From: Nitrospira sp.
GTDB lineage: Bacteria; Nitrospirota; Nitrospiria; Nitrospirales; Nitrospiraceae
DNA: 64,000 nucleotides
Assembly: GCA_029194665.1 (NCBI GenBank)
Contig: JARFXO010000002.1
Location: forward strand, 186,001 to 250,000
Direction: 5' to 3'
In this document: one piece after another, positions 9,318 to 38,358 of the stretch
How positions within the stretch are numbered: position 1 is the first letter of the stretch
Layout of the letters: every line of letters starts with the position of its first letter
The notes under the pieces: model-generated
Databases searched by the model: none
Told to the model about the DNA's origin: nothing
What the model saw: the letters and a program-made list of their open reading frames with translations, nothing else
Translations under genes and position numbers: made by a program

Positions 9318-11048
9318 CTACTCTGCCACGTCGAAGCGTAAGCCACTCGAACCTTCGCCGCGACCGACCGTCTTGCGTCTGCCGATCCATAACAGAGGGC
9401 TGCCGTCAAACCAGCGTGCGTATTGGAAAGAGCGGGTGACGCGTGCGCCTTCGCGCGGGATTTCTTCTTCGAAGATGTCGAGCGGGCCCGCGCTGGGTTT
9501 CAGGATTTGGCTCAGCGCCGGTTGAGGTTTGAGCGTGCCGTCCTGGCGCAGCGTGGCGCCACGGCGGAAGCGGATGGACTTTTGGTCCGGTTGAATCTGA
9601 GCGGGGAGTTGAATCTGAACAGGGATGAGGGGAATCCAGTAGCCGGGGACTGCTGTCGACAAGCGCCACTTCAAAGCGCCGTCGTTGGACGGAGCGGGCG
9701 TTGCTGGTTGATCGCGGCGTTGTCGAGCGAGGTCATCCTCACGACGATTCAGCGGGCGGCCGGAGACGCCTTCCGCGATGCGCTCCACGCCCCAGGCCAG
9801 ATTCGCCATTTCATCGCGCAGGAGCAGCACTTCGTCAAGCGGTTTGCTTTCCATGGTGCGTTTGAGTGTCGGCGCCAAGAAGAGATTCGTGGAGGTGTCC
9901 ACGTTGCCGCTGTTGTTGAACATGCGCCAGTGCCTCGAAGCGGGATGGGCGGATTGATTGATCGACGGCACGAGCGTGCGCACACCGAATGTGTCCGTGA
10001 TGACCAGTGAGTTGATCTCGCAGATTGAGCCGACGGGAACATCCACCGGAATCACGAACCAGTCGTTGCCGTAGGTGATGGCGAAGTCGACCAGCAGCAT
10101 GCGCGCTAAGTCGTCGGGCTCGGCCTCCACGGCGCCAAAATCGACCGATGCATCTTCGAACTCCCACCAGCGTGAGGCGGGCATTCCGCGATACGTCACC
10201 GGCGCCGGAATCGTGGTTCGGATGATGGGCAACGGATTCACGCCCGGTTTGCGGTCTGCTTCCGCCCCGAGCGTTTCGCCCATCTTCACGTCGAAATCGT
10301 ACCAGTCGAGATCGCCTTCGTAGTATTTCGATGTCAAGACTCGCTGCGAACTGGTTGGAGCTTCCACGGAAAAGGCGTATTCCATGCGTTGCGACGACCA
10401 GGCTTCGGCTTGACCCGATGGCTCGCTGAACAAGGCCTCGTACCAGCGCAGGAACGCATTTTTCGGCGCGGCGAACGCTTGAGCATCCACGGGATCGATC
10501 GTCGGGGCGGTCGGGAGTGGAGCCTTTTTGAGCTCGGCATACAGCTTGACGCCGTCCGGAACACGGTCCGACATCACCTCCAGAAATCGCAGCGCCTCGG
10601 CATCAGCATCCGCCGCGGCTGCCGCGCTGCGAGTCGGCAAGGCGAATGTCGTCAGGAAACCTTGATGATATTTCGTGCCGAATGGCGCGCGCGCCAGCAG
10701 GCGCAGGAACTGTTGCCCAGCTTCGGCACAAACCCGCAGCCGCGCGAGCGTGCCGGGCTTCGGATGCACGGTCTCCTGCTCGACCAGGGTCTCCAACGCG
10801 ACCTGTTTCGGATTGAACTTTGCCGGGCTCGCCGCGCTGCCCTGCGGCACGTAACGCGTGAGCTCGGCGCACTCGGCACGCAACCGCGCGGAGACAGGTG
10901 TGCCATTGTCGTCTCCCTGCAACTCTCCGAGTTGCCACTGACGAGCCAACAGCCAAAGCGGATCATGAATCCGAGCCTTCAACGTTTCGCTCTGCGAAGC
11001 ACCGCGGACGTTGGGTTCTAACCGAGACCATGTGGTGATGGATGGCAT
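9318..11048 (-). CDS. Fifth gene of the giant-protein operon, unknown function
   Basis: The 576-residue product is taken to begin at ATG 11048 (MPSITTWSRLEPN), ten bases after GAGAGGG and only four bases past the previous stop. The N-terminal block HDPLWLLARQWQLGELQGDD (about residues 28-47) is rich in aromatic residues and looks like a conserved signature. The rest alternates beta-rich segments with helices. There is no signal peptide, membrane segment or recognised catalytic motif. Close coupling with the upstream genes implies a shared complex or pathway. The last residues (SFQYARWFDGSPLLWIGRRKTVG, partly) are aromatic and basic. I cannot assign a function. Confidence 0.75.
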   Translation of the reverse strand: MPSITTWSRLEPNVRGASQSETLKARIHDPLWLLARQWQLGELQGDDNGTPVSARLRAECAELTRYVPQGSAASPAKFNPKQVALETLVEQETVHPKPGTLARLRVCAEAGQQFLRLLARAPFGTKYHQGFLTTFALPTRSAAAAADADAEALRFLEVMSDRVPDGVKLYAELKKAPLPTAPTIDPVDAQAFAAPKNAFLRWYEALFSEPSGQAEAWSSQRMEYAFSVEAPTSSQRVLTSKYYEGDLDWYDFDVKMGETLGAEADRKPGVNPLPIIRTTIPAPVTYRGMPASRWWEFEDASVDFGAVEAEPDDLARMLLVDFAITYGNDWFVIPVDVPVGSICEINSLVITDTFGVRTLVPSINQSAHPASRHWRMFNNSGNVDTSTNLFLAPTLKRTMESKPLDEVLLLRDEMANLAWGVERIAEGVSGRPLNRREDDLARQRRDQPATPAPSNDGALKWRLSTAVPGYWIPLIPVQIQLPAQIQPDQKSIRFRRGATLRQDGTLKPQPALSQILKPSAGPLDIFEEEIPREGARVTRSFQYARWFDGSPLLWIGRRKTVGRGEGSSGLRFDVAE

Positions 11049-11052
11049 GATG

Positions 11053-14000
11053 CTAGTCCCTCTCAAAAAAGTCCGTCGAGACGGTATGGCCTTCCGCATT
11101 GAAGGCGAAATACGCGGCGGGGAGATAGTGACTGGTCTCGTCGAGTAGGTCAGGAGTCACCGCACGCATGTGGACCAAATTGACGGTCTCGCGCAGCACT
11201 TTTTCAAGCCACGGGATCGTCCAGAACGCTTGCTCCATCGGATTGGGATGAGCGGCCACCAAAATCGCCTGTGGCGCAACAGAATCAGGCTGGTTGTACT
11301 GGAACACGACGCCGGTGGTTTCATTGGAGTTGGGCACCACCTCGACCCATTCGTCGATCAGCAGGCCGGCGATGGTAGGCTGCGTGAAATCGATGGCTTC
11401 GGGCATGTGCACGACCAACGAGAGCCGTCCCGGCGGAATCGGCGTGTCGGACGCTGCAGGCAGGCCGACCCAGCGATCGCCATCGCGTTGTGGAAGCTGC
11501 GCCACCTGCAGTGTGAGTGCGTCGCCGTTGTTGAGGGCTTCAGCATATTGCAGCGCGTCGTCGAGTCGTGCGACGCCCTCACGGACTCGTGCTATGCGCT
11601 GATGGAACGTCACGACCGTGAACGGGTCGCCGTCTTGAAGCGCGGTGCTCGCGCCCAACGCCCGTTGGATTTCGAGCAAATTCGGCGGGCGGAATCGCGA
11701 CAATACCACGAAGTTATTACCGAAGAGATGTTTCAGCCGCTCCGCCGGATCCGTCGCGGCATCGGCTTTCGCCAGGCGCTCCGTGGCTTCGCGGTCGATG
11801 GATCGCGCTTGGAAAACGAGCGTCTTCAAATCCGCTTCAGTTTGGCCGACCGCCGACAGGGGGATGGCTCCCGGGATACCGAATAGGGCAATCGTGTGCA
11901 TCGCAGATCGCAGCGGCGCCAGCGTGGTCGGCGTAACACCGGCCAGCGCCGTTTTCAACTTGGTCTCCAGCTGACGGAGCGATGCCACCGCACGGTCTGC
12001 CCGTGCCTTCAAGTTTGCCGAATCGAGAATGGTCGGTGAGTCAACGACTGCGGCGGCATTGATGTCGCCCGCACGAAGTGCGCGCCCCCCGCTCAACAGA
12101 TTGCGCGCCGTCCGCACCACTTCGGTGAATTCCGACCAACTGAGATCCGTCATGGGCCATGAGGGATCCCGCACAGGATTGAGCCGCAGCGTTTGTGTCG
12201 CAGCGAGGGACACCTTTCGCCGCGCTGCAAAAAGAAACCGCTGCTCAAGCTCCGAAAGCGGCGAGTCTTCGCTCGCTTCCTGTGCGTGAATCACGTCGAT
12301 CGGCGCGAGCTTCAAGTCCTTCAGTCGAAACTCTTGTGTATCGACCACCACGCCCGTCGTGCTATTCACGCGTTCAACCACGCAACGGACCTTCATGGGA
12401 TTGCCCAACAGCTTTGCCGCCCACGCGTTGAGGAACGGCTCGGCCAATGATCGCGGGGTCGGCGTCCAGTCTGCGATGGCCGCCGGAGTGCCCGGAAACA
12501 ACGCCACCACACGATGCGTGAAGGCGGAACCGGTCCGCGGCGTGCGGATCACCTCCAGTTCCGGCGGCGGGGCTTCGCCGCGCTCCAAGGCGTCGAGCGT
12601 GGCGGCGGCGCGGCTGGGATTTCCGCGCACGACGTGATAGGCGCTCTCGGCCAGTAACGCATCGCTCAACGCATCGACGCTGTCGGCTAACGCATCGAGC
12701 TCCACGTTCACAATGGGCGGCACGGGGAACCCCGCCCGATTACCCACGACCTGGAGAACACGTGGCCGTGCATTCGGCTCGTTGATCTGGCGCAGGAGGT
12801 TCAGTCCGTCCACCACATGGTTGGCCGGGACGCTCTCCACCGCCTGCCCGTTCTCGTCGACGCGCGTGGCGTTCAGCGGCGCTTGTTCGCGAAACGCCGC
12901 GATGAAGGGATCGAGCCCACGCTCATGCAGGCCGCGCTCGAAGCGATAGCCCAAGAGCGCGCCGAGCGGCTGTCCGGACCGCACGCCATCGAGCAGGTGT
13001 TGTGCCCTACGAGCGCGCTCGGAAGAAAGATCAATGGCGAGTGGATCGGCTTCCGGATCGGGAGTCCGGCCGAACCGCGTAAGATGGCCGCTGCGCAGCA
13101 CCGCCACGGTGGCTGCATGATCGAGCGACGGCGCGTGAACGAAACCGGGATCGTGACGGAATCCAAAGATTGGTCCGGGTTCGTTGGGTGGCGCCGTCAC
13201 CTCGGTCCGTGGCGGTCCTGGCTGCAGGTTCTCGACCCAGCCATAGCCTCCCAGATACACACCCGCCGGATCCCTCTGCCGCATATTCTTGAGGCGTTTC
13301 GTCGCGAACGACGTCACCCAGGCGTCCAGGCGATGCGACGTGAGATCGAGTGTGCCGCGCATCAACATCGACAACTTGTGGGTCTTCAACCCCTTCAAGG
13401 CTTCGAGACTCTTGCGGAAATCCTGCACGTTTCTGTCGGCAGGCTGAGTGAACGGCTGTCCAGTGTGCAGTGCTGCGGCAATAATGCGGTCGAGCGGCGT
13501 TTCCATCGGGAGTTGCGAGAAGCGGACATGCTCCGGCTCGGCCCGTAGATGCGGTTCACGACCGAGCAGGCGCGCTGCGGCATTCGCGTATTCGACCATC
13601 ATCGAATGCCGCAGCAGCAGATACAGTAGGCTGAATGGAACCGGAATAGACACATGTTGGAGTACGGCATCGAGATCCGGCGCCTTCAATAACTGATCGA
13701 TGTAGTTGAAGGTGAAGTCCGCAGCCGACGACGCCTGGATCAACGGCAGGTTCAGGGAGGAACGTGCAGGATCGCATACCGTCAGCGCCGCGCGCGGCGT
13801 GACGCCGCGAAGTCCGGCGATCAGCCTCAGCGCCGAGATCGCCTGCGAGCTTTGCGTTCGATTCCAGACGTCGGATGTCGGGGTCCGCAAGAACTCGAAT
13901 AGTTCTTGGGTGTAAAAGAGTCCGAAGATGTTCCGAATGGAGTAATCCGTGGACAACCCATCCATCGCAAAGACTTCGCTGAAGTCGATGTCGGGATCAC

Positions 14001-15318
14001 TGTGATTGCCCATGCGCGCCGCCGTCCGGCTTTCATCGCTCCAGTAGTTTTGGAGACGGCGCATCAATTCCACCACAGCAGCGTCCTTTGAGGCCGTTTT
14101 CCCATCCTCGGGCGTGGGCCCCCAGAACTCGAGTGCCGTGACGGGCAGGACGCCGTAGGGTTGCTTGCCGACGCGGATGGTGGGAAGCGGTCCACCGGCT
14201 CGCACATGATCGACAAAGTGTTGTCGCGCCCATTCCACGTTCACATCGATCAGGTCTTCAGAAAACAGGCCGGACGGATCGCCGTTGAAGAAGCCGAGCC
14301 CTATCATTTGTTCCAAGTAGTAGCCCCAGGTCGACGGCCAGAGTACGCGATTCATGTCGAGGGCTTCGCGTTGCTCGCGCGCATCCGCGTTGTCTGTGCG
14401 CGCCAGCAGCGCTATGGGAAGCCCGAGGGCCTTCGAGAGCTCCTCTCCATCCGATCCGTCTCCTGCCTGGAACCGAGGGGCGCCGAGAATCAGATGAAAG
14501 CTCTTGTCCTCTCCCGGATCGTCGGTACTGAAGCCGGATGCAACGTCTTCCGTGTTGTTCGTCGGCGTGCCTTGCGTGACGAGGCTCAAGCCGTCGGTGT
14601 ATTGATGTGCTTCGATCAACTCCTTCAGCCGAGCCGCTGACGCTGCGCTATCGAGCGATGTCTTCACACCAAAAACCAGGAGCAGATCGATTTTCGGAGC
14701 CGCCGTCGGCAGCTGCATGCGCAACCCCATGCCCAGGCGTTCGGCTTCGTCGAAGTCGACCATCCACTTCATGCCATCATCGATGGCCAGTGTGTCGTCG
14801 TTTTGAAGGACGGTGGCTTGAGGGTTCGGCCCCACAGGCAGAATATCCGGAATCAGTTGCCCGGCGACGGTCACTGCAGCTGTGCCCTGCACGAATGCGG
14901 TCGCGATCCACTGATCGGGAAGCACCGTGGTGCGTGGGGCGCGAGTCCAGGTTTCATTCTGCTGCTTGTCGGGACGTACCGGCGGCGACGGGAAGTTGGG
15001 CGGCTTCGTCGGCCGCTCCGTAGGATTGGTCGGCGTCAGTTGACGAACCACCCATGCCGCACGTTCCGCGCCGTAACGCTCCGCAAGTTGTCGCCACGCA
15101 TCCTTTCGCGCCTCGTCCGTGGCCGCGTTCCACAACAATCTATGGAAATGCTTGCCCCATTCGACTTCGTCTGCGGTGAGCTCCGGCTCGTGCGTGTCGA
15201 CATGAATCTTGTCTGGAAACACACGAATACGCAGCTCTTGCCCGAAGAAGCGGGTCTCCAATCGAACCGGAAACAGTACGAGCGGGCGGTCACCATGTAT
15301 CAACAACGGGTCCGGCAT
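11053..15318 (-). CDS. Fourth gene of the giant-protein operon: 1421-residue protein of unknown function
   Basis: It starts with ATG 15318, nine bases after the preceding stop, with an AAGGAT ribosome-binding site inside that gap. The N-terminus (GDRPLVLFPVRLETRFFG) looks like the first strand of a beta domain. About residue 380 there is a short conserved-looking segment, RVGKQPYGVLPV, and many mixed helix/strand stretches follow to residue 1421. I see no signal peptide, membrane helix, nucleotide-binding loop, protease triad or tandem repeat. Codon use and base composition match its neighbours. The length and soluble character suggest a structural or scaffold protein, but that is only inference. 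Confidence 0.78.
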   Translation of the reverse strand: MPDPLLIHGDRPLVLFPVRLETRFFGQELRIRVFPDKIHVDTHEPELTADEVEWGKHFHRLLWNAATDEARKDAWRQLAERYGAERAAWVVRQLTPTNPTERPTKPPNFPSPPVRPDKQQNETWTRAPRTTVLPDQWIATAFVQGTAAVTVAGQLIPDILPVGPNPQATVLQNDDTLAIDDGMKWMVDFDEAERLGMGLRMQLPTAAPKIDLLLVFGVKTSLDSAASAARLKELIEAHQYTDGLSLVTQGTPTNNTEDVASGFSTDDPGEDKSFHLILGAPRFQAGDGSDGEELSKALGLPIALLARTDNADAREQREALDMNRVLWPSTWGYYLEQMIGLGFFNGDPSGLFSEDLIDVNVEWARQHFVDHVRAGGPLPTIRVGKQPYGVLPVTALEFWGPTPEDGKTASKDAAVVELMRRLQNYWSDESRTAARMGNHSDPDIDFSEVFAMDGLSTDYSIRNIFGLFYTQELFEFLRTPTSDVWNRTQSSQAISALRLIAGLRGVTPRAALTVCDPARSSLNLPLIQASSAADFTFNYIDQLLKAPDLDAVLQHVSIPVPFSLLYLLLRHSMMVEYANAAARLLGREPHLRAEPEHVRFSQLPMETPLDRIIAAALHTGQPFTQPADRNVQDFRKSLEALKGLKTHKLSMLMRGTLDLTSHRLDAWVTSFATKRLKNMRQRDPAGVYLGGYGWVENLQPGPPRTEVTAPPNEPGPIFGFRHDPGFVHAPSLDHAATVAVLRSGHLTRFGRTPDPEADPLAIDLSSERARRAQHLLDGVRSGQPLGALLGYRFERGLHERGLDPFIAAFREQAPLNATRVDENGQAVESVPANHVVDGLNLLRQINEPNARPRVLQVVGNRAGFPVPPIVNVELDALADSVDALSDALLAESAYHVVRGNPSRAAATLDALERGEAPPPELEVIRTPRTGSAFTHRVVALFPGTPAAIADWTPTPRSLAEPFLNAWAAKLLGNPMKVRCVVERVNSTTGVVVDTQEFRLKDLKLAPIDVIHAQEASEDSPLSELEQRFLFAARRKVSLAATQTLRLNPVRDPSWPMTDLSWSEFTEVVRTARNLLSGGRALRAGDINAAAVVDSPTILDSANLKARADRAVASLRQLETKLKTALAGVTPTTLAPLRSAMHTIALFGIPGAIPLSAVGQTEADLKTLVFQARSIDREATERLAKADAATDPAERLKHLFGNNFVVLSRFRPPNLLEIQRALGASTALQDGDPFTVVTFHQRIARVREGVARLDDALQYAEALNNGDALTLQVAQLPQRDGDRWVGLPAASDTPIPPGRLSLVVHMPEAIDFTQPTIAGLLIDEWVEVVPNSNETTGVVFQYNQPDSVAPQAILVAAHPNPMEQAFWTIPWLEKVLRETVNLVHMRAVTPDLLDETSHYLPAAYFAFNAEGHTVSTDFFERD

Positions 15319-15327
15319 GGGTATCCT

Positions 15328-18156
15328 TCAGGGCAACATCTGTCGGGCAAGGATTGCGATGCGCACCGGTTTCTGCAGCGTGATGCGCGCCATGTGCGCG
15401 CCATTCGCTCCCCACTGAGCTCCGGACGGATCGGCCGAGGTGTCGGGAAGCGGCGGTGGCGGCTGATCGGGCTTCACGCCGACCTTCACATGAACCAGCT
15501 CCCGCAGTTCGGCCGCCGACTGTACCAGATGGCGCCAGGTCAGTTGATTCCAGTCCGTGACGCGTGGCGGCTGTGGAGCGATATCCTTCGGCATGTCGAG
15601 TCCGAAGTCCGGCTCGCCGGGCTGTTGCTGGATCACGAAGAACCACCCGGGATCTGGATCGGTACCTCGGGCCACACTGGCCTTCAGATCAAAGCCGAAG
15701 AACACCACATCGGGCGGCGCCGAGCCACGGAACAAGGGGTAATTCTCCTGCGTCGTGAGTTTGGGATTGGCGGCCGTACCCGTGGCCTTTGCGGCGTAGA
15801 TCACGGCGTTGGGATAGCGTCGAAAGAGCTCGCCACGCACTAACAACACCAACTGATCGGGGTTTCCCGAGGCAGAAGGATTGCGGCCCAGCGGACTGTT
15901 CCAGGTGTGAATGGGCTGCATGAATTCTTGCTGCGCCGAGCCACGACGATTCCAGAAGAAGCGGAAGTAACTGCCGCGCCGGTCCGTAGGGTACTCGCGC
16001 CAGAGCAGCTCGCGACCCATCTCGTGATTCAAGCCGATCATAAATGCTTCGATGAAGCGCGAATTCGGCTGCACCAACGTGACACTGTTGGGTGGGACAT
16101 GTTCGAGCCCCGGCAGGAGGAACTCCGGGGCGAGCTCCACGAGACGCTCGGACATCGGCGCCGGAAATTGCGGATGCGCCAGAATTTGCTCTTCGTCCGG
16201 AACGGCTGCATCTCTTAGCCCTCTCCTGGTCGATCCGGCCGACAGCTGCAACGGCCGAAGCCGTCCTTTCAGCGATCCCACGTCGGGAAGGCGGAAATCG
16301 ATTTTGCCGATGCCTCCGATTCGCACAAGCTTCGACAAATGCACGACGGCAGCTTGACGGAATTCCGCCATCAGGGTGGGCTCACGCAGCCCTCCGTCGT
16401 CGACGGCTCGAAAAAGATCGCCCTGCGGCCCACGGATCGTCAGCACCGGAGGCCGCACGGTGGAATTGAAGTTGGCAGGCACAAGTCTCGCCTGATCGAT
16501 TTGCGGGGTATTCGCAGCATCCGAGACGCTCTTGATTGTCGCCATACGGCCGACGAAAATTCGTGGTGGAACAGTAATCACGACACGGTTCACCGGCGGC
16601 AGCGCTTGTAGAAGTTTCACCATCGGACGCGCGAATGTTTGATTCTGGACAATCGCCGGTGTCAGCGCGCGCCGATTGATCGGTCCGCGGGGACGCGCCA
16701 CTCGCCTCAACGCGGCAGATTGGAATCCCGGTGCCTCCGATCCGCTCAACTGCCATGCCACCGTACGCTGAACGTTGGTGTCTCCCACCTTCACCGACAC
16801 CGCGACTTTCGCCAAGCTCGATCCTGTGACCTGCAGCAAGCCGTCATCTTCAATCGGCCTGACGTGGCGTACCCAGGTCGCCTGACGCGTAACAGTGGCC
16901 AACTGCTTTCGCCGCCGCTCTTCGTTTTTCTTCTCGATCGCATCCACCTGCTGCCAGGCCGAAGCCATGAGATGTTCCTGATCCTCGTGCACGATACGCG
17001 TGCCGAAGCTCGCGGCGATGCGATCCCGAGGATCCAGGTTAAGGTCGTTGATCCAATGCTGCGGCGTAACGCCCACTTCAACACGTTCCCTCGGCGGATA
17101 GGTCGAGCCGTAGATGGGTGGCGCGACGATGGGGTCCTGAGCCACCGGCTGGCTCAGTGCGTCGGCAGGAGCGTTCAAAATGTCCGCCAGTTTTCCTTGT
17201 AGCGTTTGTGATACCGGTTGCGGCTGGGCCGTGATCGGCTCCGGCGGCTTGAGGATGCCCTTCATCACAATCACGCCGCCGGAAGGAAGCCCGAATTCCG
17301 GCGAGGTAAGATCGAGCGATCGCGTACCTACGTTTTCAGGGAGCGGCTGTGGCTTGAGGTCGCGCACCAAGGATTCGAAATCGCCTTCCGGCCCGGTCGT
17401 GAATTCCCACGAATAAAATACGGGCAACTGGAACGGCGCCGTCGGCTGATCGAGACGCCACGCCGGCTCAAGCTTTTCGAGCTCTTGCCCTGCGACAGGA
17501 AGTCCGAGACCGGCCTTCCGTCCGACTTCAAACGCCGGCACCACACAGGCAATATAGGCCACATCCGGATCGAGACGCCGTGGACAGATGAACCGTGACA
17601 CGGTGCGCGCCGGAGCGGCTTCGATGGCATTTTTGAGAATGGGCACCGTATCGGTTGAGGAACCCACAACCTGCGCATGTGCCCAGGCCCACGATTCTTC
17701 GAGATCGGGCAGATCCTCCGCCACAGGGCTTGTGAACTCGAGTACCGACAGCGGCGATGTGTCGGTACGGCCGAATGTGACGCTTGGCTTCTTGCGCACC
17801 ACGACCAGACAGATCCAGGGCCGCAGCCGCTCCCCTGCACCGGCTTTTGCAGGAGTGAAGAGCCATGGGAAATCGGGCCGATCGAATTCAACCAGCGGGA
17901 AGAAATTGGACTCAAAGTTCGTGGTCTGATGGCGCGGCTGCACCCGAACGATCTGACGCGGATCGATCGCGGTGACATCGGCAGGACCGTAAAGACGAAC
18001 ATCACGAGCAGGCACATTGAAGTTGTTCAGCTGCACGCTCACCGGGAGCGAGACGTCGGCGCGTTGGGCGGAGCCGAGGGAATCCGGCGTCGTGATGCCG
18101 GAGGCAGCACCTTGCCGGACCCACGGTAAGAAGTGTCGTACTGCATTGTCGGCCAT
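15328..18156 (-). CDS. Third gene of the giant-protein operon: 942-residue protein of unknown function
   Basis: ATG 18156 is chosen because it follows GGAGCGG by six bases. A more distal in-frame ATG at 18195 would add 13 poorly supported residues. The product begins MADNAVRHFLPWVRQG and has a first block with VRLYGPADVTAIDP, FPLVEFDRPDFPWLFTP and RLRPWICLVVV (about residues 55-135). That pattern resembles a beta-rich assembly domain. A charged helix (AIEKKNEERRRKQ) lies near residue 400. The C-terminal quarter contains NPDQLVLLVRGELFRRYPNAVIYA. No signal peptide, membrane helix or enzyme motif is visible. It is probably cytoplasmic and acts with the flanking giant proteins. Confidence 0.77.
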   Translation of the reverse strand: MADNAVRHFLPWVRQGAASGITTPDSLGSAQRADVSLPVSVQLNNFNVPARDVRLYGPADVTAIDPRQIVRVQPRHQTTNFESNFFPLVEFDRPDFPWLFTPAKAGAGERLRPWICLVVVRKKPSVTFGRTDTSPLSVLEFTSPVAEDLPDLEESWAWAHAQVVGSSTDTVPILKNAIEAAPARTVSRFICPRRLDPDVAYIACVVPAFEVGRKAGLGLPVAGQELEKLEPAWRLDQPTAPFQLPVFYSWEFTTGPEGDFESLVRDLKPQPLPENVGTRSLDLTSPEFGLPSGGVIVMKGILKPPEPITAQPQPVSQTLQGKLADILNAPADALSQPVAQDPIVAPPIYGSTYPPRERVEVGVTPQHWINDLNLDPRDRIAASFGTRIVHEDQEHLMASAWQQVDAIEKKNEERRRKQLATVTRQATWVRHVRPIEDDGLLQVTGSSLAKVAVSVKVGDTNVQRTVAWQLSGSEAPGFQSAALRRVARPRGPINRRALTPAIVQNQTFARPMVKLLQALPPVNRVVITVPPRIFVGRMATIKSVSDAANTPQIDQARLVPANFNSTVRPPVLTIRGPQGDLFRAVDDGGLREPTLMAEFRQAAVVHLSKLVRIGGIGKIDFRLPDVGSLKGRLRPLQLSAGSTRRGLRDAAVPDEEQILAHPQFPAPMSERLVELAPEFLLPGLEHVPPNSVTLVQPNSRFIEAFMIGLNHEMGRELLWREYPTDRRGSYFRFFWNRRGSAQQEFMQPIHTWNSPLGRNPSASGNPDQLVLLVRGELFRRYPNAVIYAAKATGTAANPKLTTQENYPLFRGSAPPDVVFFGFDLKASVARGTDPDPGWFFVIQQQPGEPDFGLDMPKDIAPQPPRVTDWNQLTWRHLVQSAAELRELVHVKVGVKPDQPPPPLPDTSADPSGAQWGANGAHMARITLQKPVRIAILARQMLP

Positions 18157-18219
18157 AGAAACCGCTCCTTCCTGCCCCGCCCAGCCGCGTTGCATGCCTC
18201 TGGCGCGGATGTCACTCCG

Positions 18220-21200
18220 CTACCGCCTCGCGACGACTTGGAAATTCGCTGCGTCTTCTTTATTCAACGTCTTCAGAGCATCTTGAGCTTCGAGCCTTGT
18301 CGCGAACGTCGTCGTCCCTTCGAGGTTTGACAGATCGATCTTGGATTTCACCGTAAACGTCCTCGGTTCCACGAGCGACGAAATCGCCGCCGCGCGATAG
18401 CGGATCGCACCTAGACGAGCGGTGTCGCTCATCCCGACCGCGCTCCATTCCGAAAATCGCTTCGCCACATCGAACTGAACGGTCGTGGTTGTCCGTGGCT
18501 CTTCGGGCGGGCTCGGGATGACGATATCCTCAAAATCCACAGCAGCCTGCACCGGCGTTCCGCAATCCGCTGCATTGCTGCCGACGCTGACACCGGCGGG
18601 CAAAAGCTCAAATGACGGGCTCGACAGTTTCTGGTCTTCGGACAAGTCACGAAACTGCGCGGGTGCGAAATGATCGCGGACTAGATCGCCGGCCAGCGGC
18701 GTTCGTGTGGCGGCGCCCACCACGATCTGCTGGATACGGAATTCTTGCGTGCCGCCCACTGGACGCGTATTACCAAAGCGAGAAATCGACGTGTTGAGCG
18801 GCACCACACTTTGCTTCACCGTCAACGTGCTCAGCGGATGAATGCGGACCGCACCGGCCGGGCCCTCTCGCAAGCTCACGAGACGCTCGCTGGTCCCCGG
18901 CATCTCCGCGTTCCAGGCTGCGGCGTCGGCCAACGCGGTGCGCAGTAAGGCCCCCACGTCGACAGGTGCAGGAAGCGGCGGCTTTTCGCCGGACACCAGC
19001 GTGGCGTTGAACGACACGGTGAAATCGATCCACCAGATTTCGAATGTCGCCTTACCCTTGACGTTCAGCGGACGCGGGCCGGAGAGCTCACCCGCAAAGC
19101 TGACCTTGAACAGATTCGTCGAGCCGGCTTTCAACTGCAATGATGCGTGCAACGAGGCGATGAAATGGAACGGATCGAACTGAATCAGCACATCGTACCC
19201 GGCTTGACCCGAGATGCTGAACTTCGATTTCTTGGCGAACAGCTCGGCGCGCGCACCGAACTGCACCGTGTTCGACGTGATCGCGAAGTAGGACTCGCAA
19301 CGGATCTTCAAATTGTCCGAGTCTGCGAAGACGATCGCCGCGCGTTGCATGCGCTCCAAGCCCGGCGGTGGGACGAAAGCCGGATGCAATCCACCGACCG
19401 AGAGCGCAAAGAACGGCTGGTTGCCCCAGCTCAGACGCATGCGCATTTCGCCCGTGATGACGAAGCGATCGACAAGGCGGGAATCGAACAGCACCGCGTC
19501 CAGAAACGCGCGCTTTTGGTCGAAATCTACGCCGCCGAAGATGTTCATCCGCAGACGAACCAGATCCAGATCTTTCTTCGGCAGGACGGCCGATACCTGC
19601 CCCATGATGAGGAATCGCGTCCGTACGCCCAACTCGAGGATCAGCGCTAGATTGATGGTGATCAGCGGCGGTGTGCCCCAGGTGATCTGTGCCACGAGGC
19701 CGAACAAGTAGTGATCGCGCGCCACCGGGAAGAAGTTGCGAATCACGCTGAGGTACTGCGGCGCATTGCGGACCAGGTCCTTCGGCGCGAGCACGGCATT
19801 GAGCGTGTCGGCGCGCACGCCCGCCTGCACCGCATCTTCATTGACCGTACGATGAATGCCCAACAGGCCCCCGATGCCTGTGAGCATGAAGCCGAAGCCG
19901 ATGGGAATGGGTTTGAAGCCGTCCGCCGTGATGATCACGAGGAGCGAGAAGCCGCCTCCTGGTATGTTCGTGTTCAGCAGACCCAGAGCCGAGAGCGCCG
20001 CGAAGCCTTCAATCTCCAAGTGCAGAGCGCCGGCATATTGCGAGTGTTCGCGATCGAGATCCAAGAATCCTCCGCCGTGAATGACCTTGCCGTCTATGTC
20101 CAGGCCGATGGCCTTGGGCGGCTGAAATCCGAAATCCAAATCGAACAGGCCGAGGCTGGCGTCGGGCTTGACGAAATCGACGGTCAGCGCGAAGCCCATC
20201 TTGTCGAAGCTGGCCGTGACCGGGCCCAATTGCACGTCCGCGGCAAGAGTGGCGGCCAGAGTGAGTTTGGCGTTCCCGTCCTCCGATTGTGGCTTGAGGC
20301 CAAGCGACAGAAACTGTATCCGCGCAGGCCCGAACGTCTTGCCGACGGGCGTGATGCGATTGAGATCAGTGTCGTTGGCGGCGACGACTTCGCGAGCCCG
20401 GCGGGCTCTTGACGGTGCAACGAGACGCGGCAACGCGGACGGAGGCGGCGGATTGGTTTGGGTGATGACGTTGCCCTTGCCGCCCTCCAGAAAAAATCCC
20501 CGCTCCGTCGACCATCCCACCCCCAGGTTCAGCGGAATTTTCTTCTCCCCCGATAGAATCTGCGATAGAAATCCATTCCCGGATTTATCGAGATTCAGCA
20601 CCACCTCGCTCTCGCGCGAGAGCGCCCGCACGCCTGCAACGGCAGGAGACAATTCGAATTCTGCTTCAAACTTACCGAATTGCAGATGCGAGCCGTCTTC
20701 CTTGCCAAGCCGGTAAAGCGGTGTTTCGGCACCCCCGCCCTCGAAGCCGAACTTGATGCTCAGCTGTCCCGGTCCCCCGACGCTGGACTTGGTAAACTCC
20801 TCGAGATGAAAGAATAAGGCCCCGGCCGTCACCGACGGCGTGACCTTGAAGCGCCAATCTTTGTTGATTGGGACGTTGATGCTCGCGCCGAACTCGAAGG
20901 AGACCATCAATCCGGGACCGCCGTGAATCTTGGGTACGAACAGCAACGTGAGCGTGCCGTTCTTGTCGACGGCTTTCTTGGGGTCGGCTGGGTCGCGCTC
21001 CTTCCAATTGAAGCGGAGCGAGAGCGTGCGCTCGGACATCTTGTCGAGGAGCGGCGTGGCGGAACCGGGCGCTGGTTCCCAACCGTAGAGCGGCTCAATG
21101 GCCAACGTCGAAAGATCGCCGTCGTCCTCGCGCGACGTGGAGGACGTCAACCCCATGAACTCCAGAATGACGAGCGCCGCCGAAAGGGGAATGAACACAT

Positions 21201-21852
21201 TGTCGGAAAATGTGCGTGCTTGCTCTTCATCGTCGAGCAGCCAACCGTGCTCGCTAAAGATCGTGACAAAGCGGTTCCACACCACATGCGGAATCGTGGC
21301 GGTGAGCGGCTCTTCCAGAAAGCCAAGCGGTTGCGCGGACCAATAAATGATGGGGTAGTGCAGCCGCAGATAGTCCACCATCAAGATGTCGATCAAACGG
21401 TGAACCAGCTCCGGAATGCTATGAACGCCCTCGACATCCAGCGCTTTCACGAAGTTCGTCAGCGTGGTGAAGACTTCCTTGATATCGCCGAGCGCCTTCT
21501 TGAAATCGTCGAAGCTCGGGTCCTTGGCATCGCGATAGGCGCGGATATTGGCGAGATTCTTCTCCGGCAGCACCAGCTTCGCCGCCTTACTCGAAGACAG
21601 GCCCAGGACCTTGCCGAGATCCTGTGCGTGCGCCGTGGAGACCTCCGTTTCGACGCTGATCGTCTTGCGATACTCATTGATCCCCTTGATCTGGTGCTGC
21701 GGGAACGGCTGCCCCACGGGTATATTGGGCGGCAGCCCCAGATCGATGAGCACCTCGGCGCGGGCCGCATCGTCGTTCAAACGGTCGGCCAGCCACTCGT
21801 AGAATTCGCCAACCTTGCCGACGACAGTCTGCAGGAAATTCTCGGCGCTCAT
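18220..21852 (-). CDS. DUF6603-type giant protein (second gene of the operon)
   Basis: The 1210-residue product starts at 21852, overlapping the preceding stop by four bases (ATGA). An N-terminal helical part (1-200) is followed by a long beta-rich region. Around residues 590-1010 it carries the signature I associate with DUF6603 domains: IHGGGFLDLD, the glycine-rich IPIGFGFMLTGIGGLLG, ITWGTPPLITINLALILELG, SWGNQPFFALSVGGLHPAF and ITSNTVQFGARAELFA. The regular strand pattern looks like a large barrel or prism. Function is unknown for the family. No secretion signal is present. The C-terminal 200 residues include an FAPAQFRDLSEDQKLSSPSF segment typical of these proteins. Confidence 0.8.
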   Translation of the reverse strand: MSAENFLQTVVGKVGEFYEWLADRLNDDAARAEVLIDLGLPPNIPVGQPFPQHQIKGINEYRKTISVETEVSTAHAQDLGKVLGLSSSKAAKLVLPEKNLANIRAYRDAKDPSFDDFKKALGDIKEVFTTLTNFVKALDVEGVHSIPELVHRLIDILMVDYLRLHYPIIYWSAQPLGFLEEPLTATIPHVVWNRFVTIFSEHGWLLDDEEQARTFSDNVFIPLSAALVILEFMGLTSSTSREDDGDLSTLAIEPLYGWEPAPGSATPLLDKMSERTLSLRFNWKERDPADPKKAVDKNGTLTLLFVPKIHGGPGLMVSFEFGASINVPINKDWRFKVTPSVTAGALFFHLEEFTKSSVGGPGQLSIKFGFEGGGAETPLYRLGKEDGSHLQFGKFEAEFELSPAVAGVRALSRESEVVLNLDKSGNGFLSQILSGEKKIPLNLGVGWSTERGFFLEGGKGNVITQTNPPPPSALPRLVAPSRARRAREVVAANDTDLNRITPVGKTFGPARIQFLSLGLKPQSEDGNAKLTLAATLAADVQLGPVTASFDKMGFALTVDFVKPDASLGLFDLDFGFQPPKAIGLDIDGKVIHGGGFLDLDREHSQYAGALHLEIEGFAALSALGLLNTNIPGGGFSLLVIITADGFKPIPIGFGFMLTGIGGLLGIHRTVNEDAVQAGVRADTLNAVLAPKDLVRNAPQYLSVIRNFFPVARDHYLFGLVAQITWGTPPLITINLALILELGVRTRFLIMGQVSAVLPKKDLDLVRLRMNIFGGVDFDQKRAFLDAVLFDSRLVDRFVITGEMRMRLSWGNQPFFALSVGGLHPAFVPPPGLERMQRAAIVFADSDNLKIRCESYFAITSNTVQFGARAELFAKKSKFSISGQAGYDVLIQFDPFHFIASLHASLQLKAGSTNLFKVSFAGELSGPRPLNVKGKATFEIWWIDFTVSFNATLVSGEKPPLPAPVDVGALLRTALADAAAWNAEMPGTSERLVSLREGPAGAVRIHPLSTLTVKQSVVPLNTSISRFGNTRPVGGTQEFRIQQIVVGAATRTPLAGDLVRDHFAPAQFRDLSEDQKLSSPSFELLPAGVSVGSNAADCGTPVQAAVDFEDIVIPSPPEEPRTTTTVQFDVAKRFSEWSAVGMSDTARLGAIRYRAAAISSLVEPRTFTVKSKIDLSNLEGTTTFATRLEAQDALKTLNKEDAANFQVVARR

Positions 21853-24683
21853 GGTTGTCCTCGCAGCAGGGGCCGCTTCTCCAACGGATTACCCGTGAGT
21901 CTTGCCTTGTGCGTCGTGAACGGTTGGTGATCTTCTGACGCATTCGGCAATTCGTACGGAAAAACCGTGTGCAGTTCCTGAATCGCGTGCAGGACGTCTT
22001 GATTCTGAGCGTCCTTGAGGATCTTGAAATGGATCAGCCCCAGATTGCTGCCGATACAGAGCTGCCTGCCATTACGCATGACGTCGAAGCTTCGATGATG
22101 GCGCGCGACTAGACGGCGATAGGCATCGGCGAAATTGCTGCGGAAGTTGGGATTCGGAATCGGCGTGGCCACGATATCGATCCCCGCTGATGGAGGCTTC
22201 GCTGCCTCTGGGCGCTCTTTGTCCGGCTCATAGGGCTGACCGTTGAATTCCGGCCGTTCGTCGAGCAACACGTTGATCCGCCACGACCAATCAGGCGGCG
22301 TGGTCGGCTTCACGGCTGTTCCCTCCGGCCACCCGTAGGCAGGAAGCAACATAGGGGCTTCTTCCAGCCGCGCCCGCAATGCAGGAACCGCCTGCTTCGC
22401 CTTGTCATTGAGCACGTCGGCCTTCGCGTTCCAGCCTAGACGCTCGGCGTTGATGTGGGCGCGTATGAGCTGCTGCGCACGAGAGAGACGCAGATCGATA
22501 TCGCGCAAATACTCCGGCAAGACCTTCTTGAAGCCGCTGGACGTGAATTGCACGAAGCGGCAGGGATTGCCATCGGGATCGGTGTTCTTCCAGTAGCTCA
22601 TCGCTTGCGCCGAGCCGTAGTGCACGTCACCGGAAAGCAGGACGACTTTGCGGTAGGGTTCCAGCCGCTTGAGCAACGCCTCGGTCGCTTTCGGATCGAA
22701 TGCCCACGCTTCAATCGCATCGGGATTCGTGCCGGGCATGCCACGCAGATTTTCGTTGCCGTTGGCGATGATCTCCTTGACATCGAAGGCGCGATAGGCC
22801 AATGGCGCAATCAGCTCATCGAACATCGGCGGACCGAGCACCGGCAGCGGCGCAACGACAATCAGCACTTCTTTCCCTTCCGGCAACGGACCGGCTGGAA
22901 TCTGTTTCTCGATCGCGTCGAGAATGATGTTCGTGGGCGGCCCTCCGCGAGTGACCCAGTTCCGCTGTGTGCGGTTATCGAGAGCCAGCACGAGATGCCT
23001 CGTGCCCGGCACCGAAAAGTGCCAGGACAATTGATCCTCGAACTTCGTCACATCAACCGTACGCCGGTTCAAACCAAAGAGCTGCTCGATTTCGTCATTC
23101 GCAGTTTGCTGCATCGTCGCAGTTGAGGTGGTGGAGTACAGCTGCGACGCCAGTTCCAAGAGTCTCTTCGGCTTTCCTTGCAGGTACTTCTCGGGATCGT
23201 TGCCCCAGCCTTGAAACAGCGCGAACGCCAACATGCCGTTGCGGACACAGGCACGGCCTAAAGGATTGGTCATCACACGATCACGCCACATTGGATTTAA
23301 GTTCCAATCGTCGGTGACTTCGTGGTCGTCCCACATCATGTAGGTGGGAACGTTGGACATGGCACGCCGGATCTTGTGTTGATTCTTGAGGGCCTCTAGG
23401 CAATTGTCTCGGCCTCGATCAAGAGCGACTTTGTACAAACCCCCGAGATCGTCCTTGAGCTGCTGCATGAAGTCTTTGAACTTGGCGAGCTCCTCTGCTG
23501 TGAGCCCATCCGCAAACATATAGACCTTGGGAAATGTGCCGCGCACCGGCGATCCTTGCGCCGGCAGTTTGCCGGCCTGCAGCGTATCCGTATCGATCGG
23601 ATCTCGCACGACAGGATCGAACTCGTCCTTCTTCTTGATGGCCGATTTCAGCTCCTCGACAGTAAGTGTCTTGAATGCGAAGTCGATGAATCGGCGAAGC
23701 AACGCATCAGCGATCTTGGGCTTATTTTTGTCGTCACGACGGCGGAAGATCGGCAGCACGGTATCGGGAACCTTGACGTTGTAGCTGGTGCGAAACTCCG
23801 CGATGCTGTCGTCGAAGTCTTTGATCGCGGCGGGCCGCCACAGCTCGTTATTCCAGGCAAAGAGATACATCGCCGCCAGTTCACCGAAGGACAACAGATG
23901 GGAATGATTGTCGACCGTCGTCATTCGCGCTTCCGACAGCACGAGATTCTTGCGCATCCCCACGGGAAAGTTCTTCTCGTCCGCTGCGCTGAACTTGGCC
24001 GCTAGTCCGTTAGGCTCGTTGGTCGGCAAGAACTCCCGTTTGGCCAGTAGCTCTTGGCCAAGGGCGATCATCTGAGGGAGCACCCGCCGTTCCACATCGT
24101 CCGCATAAATTTGATCGCCGGCAAGGAGGAGTTGATGGATGCGTTGGTTCGGGTTCTGGAATTGCTCCTTGATCAGATCATCGAGCCAGGGAAGCGCGTC
24201 CGATAATCCCGCCACCTGTATGCGGCAGGAACCGTGAACGATCTTCAAGTCGCTAAGCTTGTCCGGCGGAAGGGCGAAGCTGGGCAGCTGATCTAGCGCA
24301 TAGCCCAAGGCGAGCCTGCGCCTCTCGACGGGTGTCGTGCTGAGCACATCGTCCTTGAGCAAGTTGAGCGACTTCAGGTCCTTCAGCGGACCGCCCGTCT
24401 TTTCGGTGAGCGAAATGTTGTAGGAATAGATCTGCCCGGGCTTGAGCACATCGGGGCCGGTGAGTTTCATCATCACGACGGCGATGTGCAGCTTATCGCC
24501 GATGGCGATGGTGTCTGCCCTATCAGCGTCCCGGCTGAACTTCGGCGTGTCGCCAGCCTTCGCAAGACCATCAAACAATGACAGCTGCACCGAGCACGCT
24601 TTGCTCAGTGCAACCCAAACAGAAACTAACCCAGGCTCAACCCTGCGAAGAATCGGACCGGACAGAATCAACGGCAGTTCCAC
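21849..24683 (-). CDS. PhoD-like metallophosphatase domain protein (first gene of the giant-protein operon)
   Basis: The product has about 944 residues. It shows the metal-binding motifs of the PhoD family: HGSCR (about residue 150), GDQIYADD (about 190-197), MMWDDHEVTDDWN (about 447-460) and LSGDVHYGSA (about 683-692). PhoD enzymes hydrolyse phosphodiesters or monoesters with Fe/Ca, normally after Tat export; here no twin-arginine signal is visible, so the protein is probably cytoplasmic. It is about twice the usual length, with long inserts and a C-terminal extension. The start is uncertain: GTG 24683 has GCGAGG at good spacing and precedes the conserved ELPLILSGPILRR. GTG 24716 is the alternative. 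Confidence 0.83.
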   Translation of the reverse strand: MELPLILSGPILRRVEPGLVSVWVALSKACSVQLSLFDGLAKAGDTPKFSRDADRADTIAIGDKLHIAVVMMKLTGPDVLKPGQIYSYNISLTEKTGGPLKDLKSLNLLKDDVLSTTPVERRRLALGYALDQLPSFALPPDKLSDLKIVHGSCRIQVAGLSDALPWLDDLIKEQFQNPNQRIHQLLLAGDQIYADDVERRVLPQMIALGQELLAKREFLPTNEPNGLAAKFSAADEKNFPVGMRKNLVLSEARMTTVDNHSHLLSFGELAAMYLFAWNNELWRPAAIKDFDDSIAEFRTSYNVKVPDTVLPIFRRRDDKNKPKIADALLRRFIDFAFKTLTVEELKSAIKKKDEFDPVVRDPIDTDTLQAGKLPAQGSPVRGTFPKVYMFADGLTAEELAKFKDFMQQLKDDLGGLYKVALDRGRDNCLEALKNQHKIRRAMSNVPTYMMWDDHEVTDDWNLNPMWRDRVMTNPLGRACVRNGMLAFALFQGWGNDPEKYLQGKPKRLLELASQLYSTTSTATMQQTANDEIEQLFGLNRRTVDVTKFEDQLSWHFSVPGTRHLVLALDNRTQRNWVTRGGPPTNIILDAIEKQIPAGPLPEGKEVLIVVAPLPVLGPPMFDELIAPLAYRAFDVKEIIANGNENLRGMPGTNPDAIEAWAFDPKATEALLKRLEPYRKVVLLSGDVHYGSAQAMSYWKNTDPDGNPCRFVQFTSSGFKKVLPEYLRDIDLRLSRAQQLIRAHINAERLGWNAKADVLNDKAKQAVPALRARLEEAPMLLPAYGWPEGTAVKPTTPPDWSWRINVLLDERPEFNGQPYEPDKERPEAAKPPSAGIDIVATPIPNPNFRSNFADAYRRLVARHHRSFDVMRNGRQLCIGSNLGLIHFKILKDAQNQDVLHAIQELHTVFPYELPNASEDHQPFTTHKARLTGNPLEKRPLLRGQP

Positions 24684-24716
24684 GGCGAACCTCGCGTGAA
24701 GTCCGATCAGCGCCAC

Positions 24717-26686: not shown

Positions 26687-28012
26687 TTATGAAGAGGAGC
26701 CCGGTGAGGTTTTCCTCGCACTCGCATCCTGCGAGGGAAGTCCCGCGAAATATTCGAGGAGAGATCGGTGAATAAATATGTAGCCACCACCTACCTTCTT
26801 GAGGAGGATCAGCTTGGCGCAGTGGTCGAGGAACGGAATGAATCGGAAGGGTGTGGAGCTTGTCAGCCAGAGAACTAGTCGAAGTGAATAGTGTTTCACC
26901 ACAGTTGAACCGCCACGATTGAGCCCGACCGTCAGACCAAGTAGCATGCTGGGCCCTAACTCAAGGACCAATGATCCCCTTAGCACATAGTCCAACCCGT
27001 GGTCCATCATTCTAAATAGCCCAATTATCATTACACCGAGCAACACACAGAGTAGTAATACAACCAACCCGTTTCTCAGGGACAGCGTAACGCCTTGATT
27101 CGGAGAGTCTTTATCCGCCCTAATTTGATCGATCAGCCCGCGGCTTATCCCAACCACCAATCCTGTGAACAGCCCAAACCCCACCAGCACGTAAAGCAAT
27201 GCGTTGGATTTCGTGACCTTCCCAGATTCAGATCCCCATATCTGAGCCAACAAAAACGTGATGAGCACCATTGTTACTAATAAGCCAGTATTTCTCAAAA
27301 ACGCTCTCCAACTCCATGACATAGCTTCAACAAGATGAATTTCCTTTAGAGAACCAATTCCCAATCCCCCGATCGGTCCAATAAAGGACCCAACAGGTAT
27401 TAAACCTTTATCAAAGTTCACGAGCCCTCCAAGCATAACCATCAACATGATAACTAACAGACAACATACTACCCCATTTATTACAGGCAACTTTGTCCGA
27501 CAACCCACAAAAAAACTTATCCCACTGAACAGCCCAAGCCAAAGCCCTTCACTTAGCCCACTTCCAGTCACAACGACCAGCGAAATGATTAAACCAACAG
27601 TCAGTCCTGCAAGTAGCGCCGCTACAGCTTCGTACGCTAACCTTTGGCCCGTAGAGTCCAACCAATGAGGCTGGAGTTCCTCAACCATAAATACGGACTG
27701 TGACTGTTCTTTCATTTTCCGAGCCAACCATGAGAGCCAGCGAATGGTTTGGTCCTGAGGAAACGGACTTGTGATTGATTTCTTCCGTTGAAACATCCGT
27801 TCTACATAGAGTTGGAAGATTTGCTCTCGACGCACTTGTGGTGATTCGCCCTTGTGGCTCGCTAGAGCTTTTCCATCTACTCCCTCACAGGCTAGGCTCA
27901 TGATGCTGAGCATCAGTGGAGTCTGTGCTAGGTCCTGTAACACAGGATCGCTACTCATGGCCTGTTGGAGCCCCGCCAATTGTGGACCGCCAGATGTGAG
28001 AAAATTACTCAT
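26687..28012 (-). pseudogene. C-terminal membrane part of a broken TIR-NACHT protein
   Basis: This 441-residue frame begins at 28012, overlapping the stop of the NACHT frame by four bases. Its first 110 residues (DLAQTPLMLSIMSLA, REQIFQLYVERMFQRK, IRWLSWLARKM) are the helical region that normally follows a NACHT ATPase, so the frame continues an interrupted protein. About seven hydrophobic segments follow (for example LTVGLIISLVVV, VVCCLLVIMLMVMLGG, LLVTMVLITFLLAQI, LVVLLLCVLLGVMIIG). A soluble tail (GGGYIFIHRSLLEYFAGL) closes it, typical of the NACHT C-terminal domain. Intact relatives are single proteins, so the ATGA junction is read as a frameshift rather than as a gene start. Translational coupling is the alternative. 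Confidence 0.7.
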
Positions 28013-28638
28013 ATCTTCTCTTCCTGACCCAACGGCTGGATGCAGATGGCACCATTCAGTTTGAGCCTCTTGGTGAGCCGCCCATACTCCATCAATCGGC
28101 TACAGACGATCAGTCCAGATGGATTGCGAGTCTCAATGAATGTATTGATGGCCGCCACGCAATCTAGTTGGTTGGCAAGTTGAACTTCATCCAATCCATC
28201 CAACAACGGCACAAGATAGCCATTCGCCAGCCACGCCCTCGCGATCTTCACCGGAATGCGGTACTTGGCCGAGAGCTCAGCTGCGATCCACTCCTCAAGC
28301 GACTGATTCTTTTGCCAACTCGACAGATTCAATACGATGGGCACTCGTTCTTTTGGATCGTTCTTCGTTCTGCTGATCAGGACAGCCGCAAGTTCCAGCA
28401 GACTCGTCGTCTTCCCAGATCCTGGTTCTCCTAAGATGAGAAGAAGACCCGTTTCATCAAAGACGGTGTGGATATTGTGATCTTGCTGGAGCAACTCGCG
28501 GCAGCGATCCGGTAGGTCACCGACATATTTCCAGGGCGGCTGTTCCACCATCTCATCCATCTGGCGTTTGCCCAGCAAGATCAGCACTTCATGGTAGAGC
28601 GACTGCCTGAGTACTCCATCGACCCAGTATTCCTGCAC
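28009..28638 (-). pseudogene. NACHT ATPase segment of a broken TIR-NACHT protein
   Basis: The frame carries a P-loop, GEPGSGKT (about residues 70-77 from the first ATG), and a Walker B region LVPLLDGLDEV (about 142-152), which define a NACHT-type STAND ATPase. Coding continues upstream of the first ATG, to about 28687 in the same frame, where it would join the TIR segment. It ends in ATATGA, immediately overlapping the next frame. In bacterial NLR-like proteins this module oligomerises on sensing infection and activates the effector domain. Confidence 0.72.
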
Positions 28639-29204
28639 ACGATCTCGGAGAATCCCGAGTTGCTCGCGCTGCTTCTTGTCCGGGGGGCAGCGATGGGAGA
28701 ATACAGCTCCACTTTCGCATCGTCTTGACTTGGTGTCAGTAAAACACTGGTCGGGAACAATTTCTTTCGATAGTCAGATTTCTCTCCTGTGATTCCGCGT
28801 ATCAGCTTCTCATATGGGTCTGGGTCGGTCTTTCGGAAATCCACCCAGTCGAAGATTTGGAGCAAGTTAGGGAGGTCGGGTGTTTCCGTGGCCGACGACA
28901 AGATCACTGGAATGACGGGACAGGCTCGGGCGACGAATTGTTGAATGAATGCCCACATTTCATTTTGTTGCCAAGGGCCAATCCCACTCTTCCCGACAAA
29001 AACCGCAGCAGCCTTGATCGTACCGATCTGCCTATCCAGGACTTCTATCCATACTGTCCCAGGCAGGATTTCCCGTTCGTCCAACCACGGCTTAAGGCCT
29101 CTGCGGGACAACTCATCCGCAATCTGGCGGATCTCTGGCTTGTCCTCGCTGTTGTGGCAGAGGAAGACGTCGACGTGTTCGGCGTTGGAGTGAGATTCAT
29201 TCAT
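28581..29204 (-). pseudogene. TIR effector segment of a broken TIR-NACHT protein
   Basis: Residues 10-150 form a TIR domain: VDVFLCHNSEDKPEIRQIADELSRRG, the DEREILPG loop and the probable NADase glutamate in QQNEMWAF (residue 82). The frame then runs 40 residues out of register (from SPIAAP onward) before stopping. Inserting one base in the C6 run at 28682-28687 would restore reading into the NACHT frame. TIR domains of this kind degrade NAD+ or make signalling nucleotides in anti-phage defence. The start at 29204 is the only good ATG. Confidence 0.75.
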
Positions 29205-35681: not shown

Positions 35682-35828
35682 CATCGAGATATTCTCCCGT
35701 ACAGTACGCTGCTCGCGGCTTCCAGTCGGCAACGCGCCCATGGACGACCCACGAAAGCGGATCGCGGTCGAGCTAGTGTCCCGCTGTGCTGCCGGCCGTG
35801 AACCGGCGCATCGCCAGCCCCAGGGTCA

Positions 35829-37407: not shown

Positions 37408-37793
37408 CCACCAAAATCCACGCCACCTGTGATGCGTTGGGTAACCCAACGGGGTTTCATCTCACCCCAGGGCAGGCGCATGACCTGGAGGGCGCCGATG
37501 TCTTGCTACCCGGCATTGACGCGGATACCATCATTGCCGATAAGGCCTTTGATGCCGATGAACGGGTGATCCAGCCGCTGCAACGAGCGGGCAAGGTCGT
37601 GGTCATTCCCCCCAAAGCCAACAGAACCACCCCCCGCGAATACGATCAAGACCTCTACCGAGCCCGGCATCTGATTGAGAACTTCTTCGCCAGACTCAAG
37701 CAATTCCGCGCCATCGCCACCCGCTACGACAAACGCGCCGCCAATTTCCTCGGTGCCATCTATCTCGCTGCTTCAATGACATGGCTTAATTGA
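37375..37793 (+). CDS. IS5 transposase, second frame (made by -1 frameshift)
   Basis: Beginning after the A4G5 run, the frame reads EAIGRSKGGLTTKIHA, then DTIIADKAFDAD (second aspartate) and YRARHLIENFFARLKQFR (catalytic glutamate), ending at MTWLN. The combined transposase has about 250 residues. The boundaries of the fused product are inferred from the slippery heptamer. Confidence 0.8.
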
Positions 37794-37802
37794 TGACACG
37801 CC

Positions 37803-37846
37803 CTAGAACAGCTGCACGATGAAACACTTCAGATGCCGCGTCTCCC
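37803..37846 (-). pseudogene. Remnant 3 of the rlmI 3' end
   Basis: Leftward this encodes ETRHLKCFIVQLF and a stop, matching the last 13 residues of the RlmI-type protein. Homology ends at TCTCC (37846), directly followed by the end of cyanase copy 2. The left border is the IS5 terminal repeat. Confidence 0.7.
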
Positions 37847-37849
37847 TCA

Positions 37850-38286: not shown

Positions 38287-38358
38287 GCTGGCCTCCAATA
38301 GATAGGGGGGGCTCTATCAACAATCAACCGGGACCCTATGGAAAAGAGATGGACGCGA

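Follow-up and report, generated by a model that had tools for sequence, protein, structure and literature searches.

A conserved four-gene cassette with an exchangeable upstream hydrolase gene in Nitrospira, distant bacteria and haloarchaea

The window analyzed in this study is a stretch of 64,000 nucleotides of the Nitrospira sp. contig JARFXO010000002.1. Five open reading frames, named A to E, all lie on the minus strand of the window between 9318 and 24716. The features of the locus are listed in Table 1. A preliminary description had reported five leftward genes with gaps of -4, 63, 9 and 4 bases. This layout was borne out, and the starts of C (18156, 942 aa) and E (11048, 576 aa) are backed by ribosome-site sequences. 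The length of 944 aa reported for A holds only when translation is counted from the next in-frame GTG; position 24716 itself is the GTG start of a frame of 955 codons, and 955 codons are retained in the orthologues of loci L021 and L023. The dN/dS value against two orthologous loci was 0.09-0.15 in each of A-E, which indicates purifying selection. The genes are therefore real and selected, and chance ORFs are excluded. The nearest relatives of the locus are found in Nitrospira MAGs. As first described, only A and B can be linked to families, A to PhoD and B to DUF6603, while C, D and E have no Pfam or NCBIfam match, and none of the five has a signal peptide or a clear membrane helix.

Table 1 Coordinates of the genes and motifs at the A-E locus, numbered within the window.
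Feature	Position	Strand	Basis
Gene A, PhoD-like metallophosphoesterase (Cys-ligand type), occupant of the hydrolase slot	21849..24716	-	Pfam PF09423, 2yeq profile match, motif conservation
A metal motif GDQIYADDV, residues 200-208	24093..24119	-	D201/D206 invariant, Y204 11/12
A metal motif DDHEVTDD, residues 463-470	23307..23330	-	11/12 conserved; aligns with 2yeq DDHEV
A metal motif GDVH, residues 696-699	22620..22631	-	D697/H699 10/12; aligns with 2yeq GDVH
Gene B, 1210-aa DUF6603 protein	18220..21852	-	PF20248; 4-base overlap with A
B DUF6603 domain, residues 503-1073	18634..20346	-	Pfam
Gene C, 942-aa orphan chassis protein	15328..18156	-	no Pfam/NCBIfam/PHROG match; family in 56 loci
Gene D, 1421-aa orphan chassis protein	11053..15318	-	no convincing family match; family in 56 loci
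Gene E, 576-aa orphan chassis protein (HDPLWLLARQWQLGELQG ... RRKTVGRGEGSSGLRFD)	9318..11048	-	no family match; family in 57 loci; conserved motifs

Protein A matched the PhoD profile PF09423 with an E-value of 2.9e-9 and 37 bits, above the Pfam cut-off of 27. Its sole PDB profile match was B. subtilis PhoD (2yeq), a weak match (E-value 0.029) over the metal motifs, in which residue equivalence is given for DDHEV and GDVH only. D201 was conserved in 12/12, C164, Y204 and DDHE in 11/12, and D697/H699 in 10/12. Similar to the PhoD family, which includes B. subtilis PhoD and S. chromofuscus phospholipase D, A has the PhoD motifs, and a Cys and a Tyr are conserved where the Fe3+ ligands are expected (PMC4223295). 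Different from this family, A lacks a Tat export signal, heads a conserved operon of giant proteins and is remote in sequence. It begins directly with the N-terminal domain, and no copy of A has a hydrophobic N-terminus.

Protein B is a clear member of DUF6603 (PF20248; 7.8e-130, 434 bits), with positions 1-501 of the 502 in the profile covered. The alignment reveals a helical N-terminal region and a large glycine-rich region with conserved motifs, and from its sequence the glycine-rich region is probably beta-rich. Matches of B in the PDB were mostly designed helical bundles on the N-terminal region and were rejected. The Pfam entry gives no function for DUF6603, whereas here the domain occurs together with C, D and E and with a hydrolase slot. 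Neither DUF6603 nor PF20248 is named in any of the open-access papers searched, a set without subscription papers or preprints.

The orphan proteins C, D and E also gave no significant match in PHROGs. Comparison of 31-40 relatives of each with Pfam yielded no more than extra domains on some copies and matches at the level of chance. Profile searches of the PDB returned nothing usable for C and D, and the match of E to 3kdq (E 0.0014) was dismissed as a chance alignment of low-complexity helices. By hhalign, no homology was found between C and D or between C and E, and the signal between D and E was weak (probability 18). AF2 models were built for E from 11 sequences (mean pLDDT 40.7, left uninterpreted) and for C from 14 sequences (mean pLDDT 55.4). 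With this low-confidence C model, Foldseek found no match at E <= 0.001 in the PDB or among viral structures. VIA-align placed a modest CopC-like beta-sandwich match on residues 66-254 of the same low-confidence model (best Z 7.9); antibody-like matches on residues 689-939 were set aside.

The related loci were collected through matches of C or E, and the presence of the remaining genes is thus a fair test of whether they belong together. B-C-D-E was collinear in 54/58 related loci, a set that includes some near-duplicates of the same species and, among the 54, two loci cut by contig ends within C. HMM matches were counted instead of gene calls, in which B or D were merged and C was missed in some high-GC loci. 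B was matched in 53 of the 58 loci, C in 56, D in 56 and E in 57; contig ends account for three of the absent Bs and for the sole absent E. True E orphans are limited to two loci, S. anthocyanicus L039 and G259. The hosts belong to Nitrospirota, Acidobacteriota, Actinomycetota, Alpha- and Betaproteobacteria (Pseudomonadota), Gemmatimonadota and Halobacteria, and one short Verrucomicrobiota contig carries C-D only. Fused D-E proteins are encoded in L025 (2168 aa) and G593 (2101 aa); Rhizobium and Halobellus have C, D or both in split form. Pairwise distances correlate between genes, with r = 0.87 for D-E and 0.70-0.89 for the others, values that still include shared species history. The spread is patchy: with seeds counted, the cassette was present in 11/99 Nitrospira-order genomes, 4/297 Acidobacteriota, 9/346 Actinomycetota and 35/251 genomes in the family of Amorphoplanes, and the 1/349 in Pseudomonadota was the seed itself. 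It was also present on 15 plasmid records. The single system proposed at first is upheld by this co-occurrence in order across distant phyla and archaea together with the D-E fusions; the genes were not found separately in most genomes, and the B-C-D-E order held. Between C and D, a coiled-coil-like gene of 269-270 aa was observed in one Nitrospira clade (L027, L120, L123 and L135), and one of 218 aa in Amorphoplanes L033.

The gene directly upstream of B varies between loci. This position, herein called the slot, was classified by Pfam, and the assignments were carried to other loci by phmmer or the A profile. PhoD-like proteins are the most frequent occupants (18 loci), followed by HKD phospholipase D (5, one a fragment), trypsin-like proteins (3), M64 peptidases (2), subtilases (2) and a single protein with peptidoglycan-binding and lytic transglycosylase domains; about 6 occupants have no family assignment. 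In many loci the slot gene either overlaps B or is separated from it by no more than about 100 bases. On the B+D+E tree, the 31 classified loci require at least 10 changes of slot class, where the minimum possible is 5, and copies from Nitrospira, Acidobacteriota and Actinomycetota intermingle. Both HKD motifs are present in the Nitrospira slot PLDs. One Nitrospira genome (G030) contains two cassettes, a PLD-type cassette with a lectin/fibre-like gene downstream and an orthologue of the PhoD-type cassette of the window. In Nocardia, a third subtilase is located directly downstream of E rather than in the slot. Of the five-gene unit first proposed, B-E is therefore constant, and the PhoD gene is just one occupant of an exchangeable slot; the view of the metallophosphatase as an enzyme module is strengthened by this exchange of hydrolases. 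These data leave very little doubt about a conserved cassette whose hydrolase is swapped between loci. S. chromofuscus phospholipase D is itself a PhoD family member of the Cys-ligand subfamily (PMC4223295), so PhoD and PLD, the commonest occupants of the slot, may share a substrate.

A second architecture, DUF6603'-C'-D', was found in Nitrospira relatives, Paenibacillus and Streptomyces plasmids (L140/L141, L138/L139, L137, L146 and L147). Homology links C' to the N-terminal part of C (hhalign probability 96.8). D' is another orphan giant family of 1050-1333 aa with no detectable relation to D or E, and in the type-II locus of G012 an HKD phospholipase D occupies the slot. Since DUF6603' and C' occur with another back end, the B-C front seems, from these comparisons, older or wider than D-E.

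No signal peptide was found in A-E at any locus, except for one ambiguous B start. Surface-type domains are added in a minority of loci: a lamin-tail domain (LTD) on a haloarchaeal E, Laminin_G_3 (laminin-G/ConA-like) and FG-GAP within some C copies, and a peptidoglycan-binding domain (PG_binding) on a Streptomyces A. A minus-strand gene 77 bases downstream of E (L126:509-1840) encodes GIGT-type repeats and a C-terminus like that of H-type lectins and gp53-like tail fibres; the minus-strand gene 45 bases downstream of E in another locus (L130:4960-6189) has no Pfam match. Cell-wall hydrolases are encoded near several loci. The cytoplasmic location suggested in the preliminary description is doubtful in view of these added lectin-like, lamin-tail, FG-GAP and peptidoglycan-binding domains and the wall-degrading enzymes of the slot, although Sec and Tat signals are absent. 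The surface-type domains and the nearby cell-wall hydrolases would favor action on a cell surface after non-classical release.

We tentatively favor a reading in which the hydrolase is presented or delivered to cell envelopes by the B-E chassis, probably in conflict. In this reading the four proteins B (DUF6603), C, D and E would serve as the conserved chassis, with one exchangeable hydrolase for envelope polymers or other cell material supplied by the gene directly upstream of B, the Cys-type PhoD phosphoesterase in the case of the window. The chassis would most likely form a large complex without Sec/Tat signals, which could be released by lysis or another route. Add-on binding domains of the lectin-like, lamin-tail, peptidoglycan-binding and fibre-like types would then bring the hydrolase to a cell surface, and the target would most plausibly be competing cells. 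The cassette, its fixed order and the exchangeable slot are observed; the physical complex, proposed in the preliminary description as a stoichiometric and perhaps particle-like assembly, the extracellular action and the antagonistic role are inferences. An antibacterial weapon usually needs an immunity gene; none was identified here, short of a systematic search.

The binding domains and the degradative nature of every slot enzyme also agree with nutrient scavenging facing the surface or periplasm, in which the chassis keeps a polymer-degrading hydrolase near the cell and phosphate, amino acids or sugars are harvested. PhoD enzymes are classic releasers of phosphate (PMC4223295), and the PhoD slot taken alone fits phosphate scavenging equally. 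However, signal peptides are absent, no recurring transporter family stood out beside the cassette, and one chassis would have to serve slot substrates as unlike as lipid, protein and peptidoglycan. Scavenging is thus considered an unlikely, though still serious, alternative.

Less likely again is an intracellular, self-directed conflict or abortive-infection module, in which the chassis senses a threat and then activates the hydrolase. Giant proteins without signals would suit such a module, TIR and NACHT genes adjoin the cassette copy of the window, and WD40 genes are adjacent in some loci. Defence systems commonly use protease and PLD effectors. Similarly, in modular effector-swapping conflict systems one position is taken by unrelated hydrolases, as in the cassette; in difference from those systems, the cassette core contains no identified NTPase or sensor, and PADLOC returned 0 families matched by A-E. 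The same PADLOC result and the lack of a recognizable NTPase in the core count against the intracellular module, and lectin, fibre-like, peptidoglycan-binding and lytic transglycosylase parts are ill-suited to the cell interior.

Extracellular contractile injection systems and toxin complexes resemble the cassette, by analogy only, in their conserved chassis with a variable enzymatic payload, their fibre/lectin-like parts in some loci and their signal-less proteins. They differ in that the cassette has no sheath match and C, D and E have no convincing relation in Pfam, PHROG or the PDB. Contractile sheath genes were detected in 19/24 cassette genomes, including the genome of the window, and the raw association between sheath and cassette in Nitrospira-order genomes gave p = 0.001. 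Such an association would fit a cassette that serves as cargo or accessory to a contractile injection system whose genes lie at another place in the genome. The association was rejected as a genome-size effect, being lost when the comparison is restricted to Nitrospira genomes of 4.0 Mb or more (5/7 vs 8/12, p = 1, a small sample). Five of the 24 cassette genomes (G041, G1289, G1468, G451 and G688) have no sheath match, no sheath lies inside a cassette, and the sheath genes that are present lie away from the cassettes. A role as such cargo is accordingly improbable. To a similarly low degree, a lipid-handling complex might be considered, with lipids bound or transferred by DUF6603 and processed by PhoD or PLD, given PhoD or PLD in 23/31 classified slots and the region of B that is probably beta-rich, but the slot is also filled by peptidases and a lytic transglycosylase.

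Beyond delivery of a hydrolase to envelopes by the B-E chassis, a wider claim may be made with more hesitation. The cassette could represent an undescribed, non-contractile and Sec-independent envelope-attack machine common to bacteria and archaea, with a four-protein chassis, an interchangeable hydrolase head and a second architecture in which the DUF6603-C front is joined to a different back end. The cassette is apparently undescribed so far, as judged from the same open-access papers. If the wider claim is true, the missing domain annotation of the core proteins has kept a weapon or surface machine of nitrifiers, soil actinomycetes and haloarchaea from notice. With its exchangeable slot, the cassette allows the hypothesis to be tested directly, and the slot gene offers a handle on the targets. 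Even without the weapon reading, DUF6603 and three large orphan families gain a genetic context and an annotation rule.

A phage module was also considered and rejected, with no significant PHROG match, no match in IMG/VR and no DUF6603 in 50,697 phage records. The lone phage-labelled match of E is an unverified human faecal record (L040, MT835531.1, 'Bacteriophage sp.'), which carries B-C-D-E together with bacterial-looking genes and is probably a mislabelled bacterial scaffold.

Several further genes were observed in the window and its genome. The genome contains a contractile-injection-like locus, L144 (G000:C1:478000-497999), with two adjacent sheath genes at C1:486-488 kb and with genes that look tube- and spike-like on visual inspection of their N-termini; contig C6 has another sheath match. 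In the window, a cyanase gene (37789-38298, minus strand) and an asparagine synthase-type gene (33786-35741, minus strand) lie near the cassette and show nothing unusual. The TIR (28584-29204) and NACHT (28012-28638) parts beside the cassette are spread over three frames within 26690-29204 of the minus strand, and their counterpart in the relative L021 is a single long ORF that spans 782 aa or more. From this comparison, the TIR-NACHT gene of the window looks frameshifted, as a pseudogene or through an assembly error.
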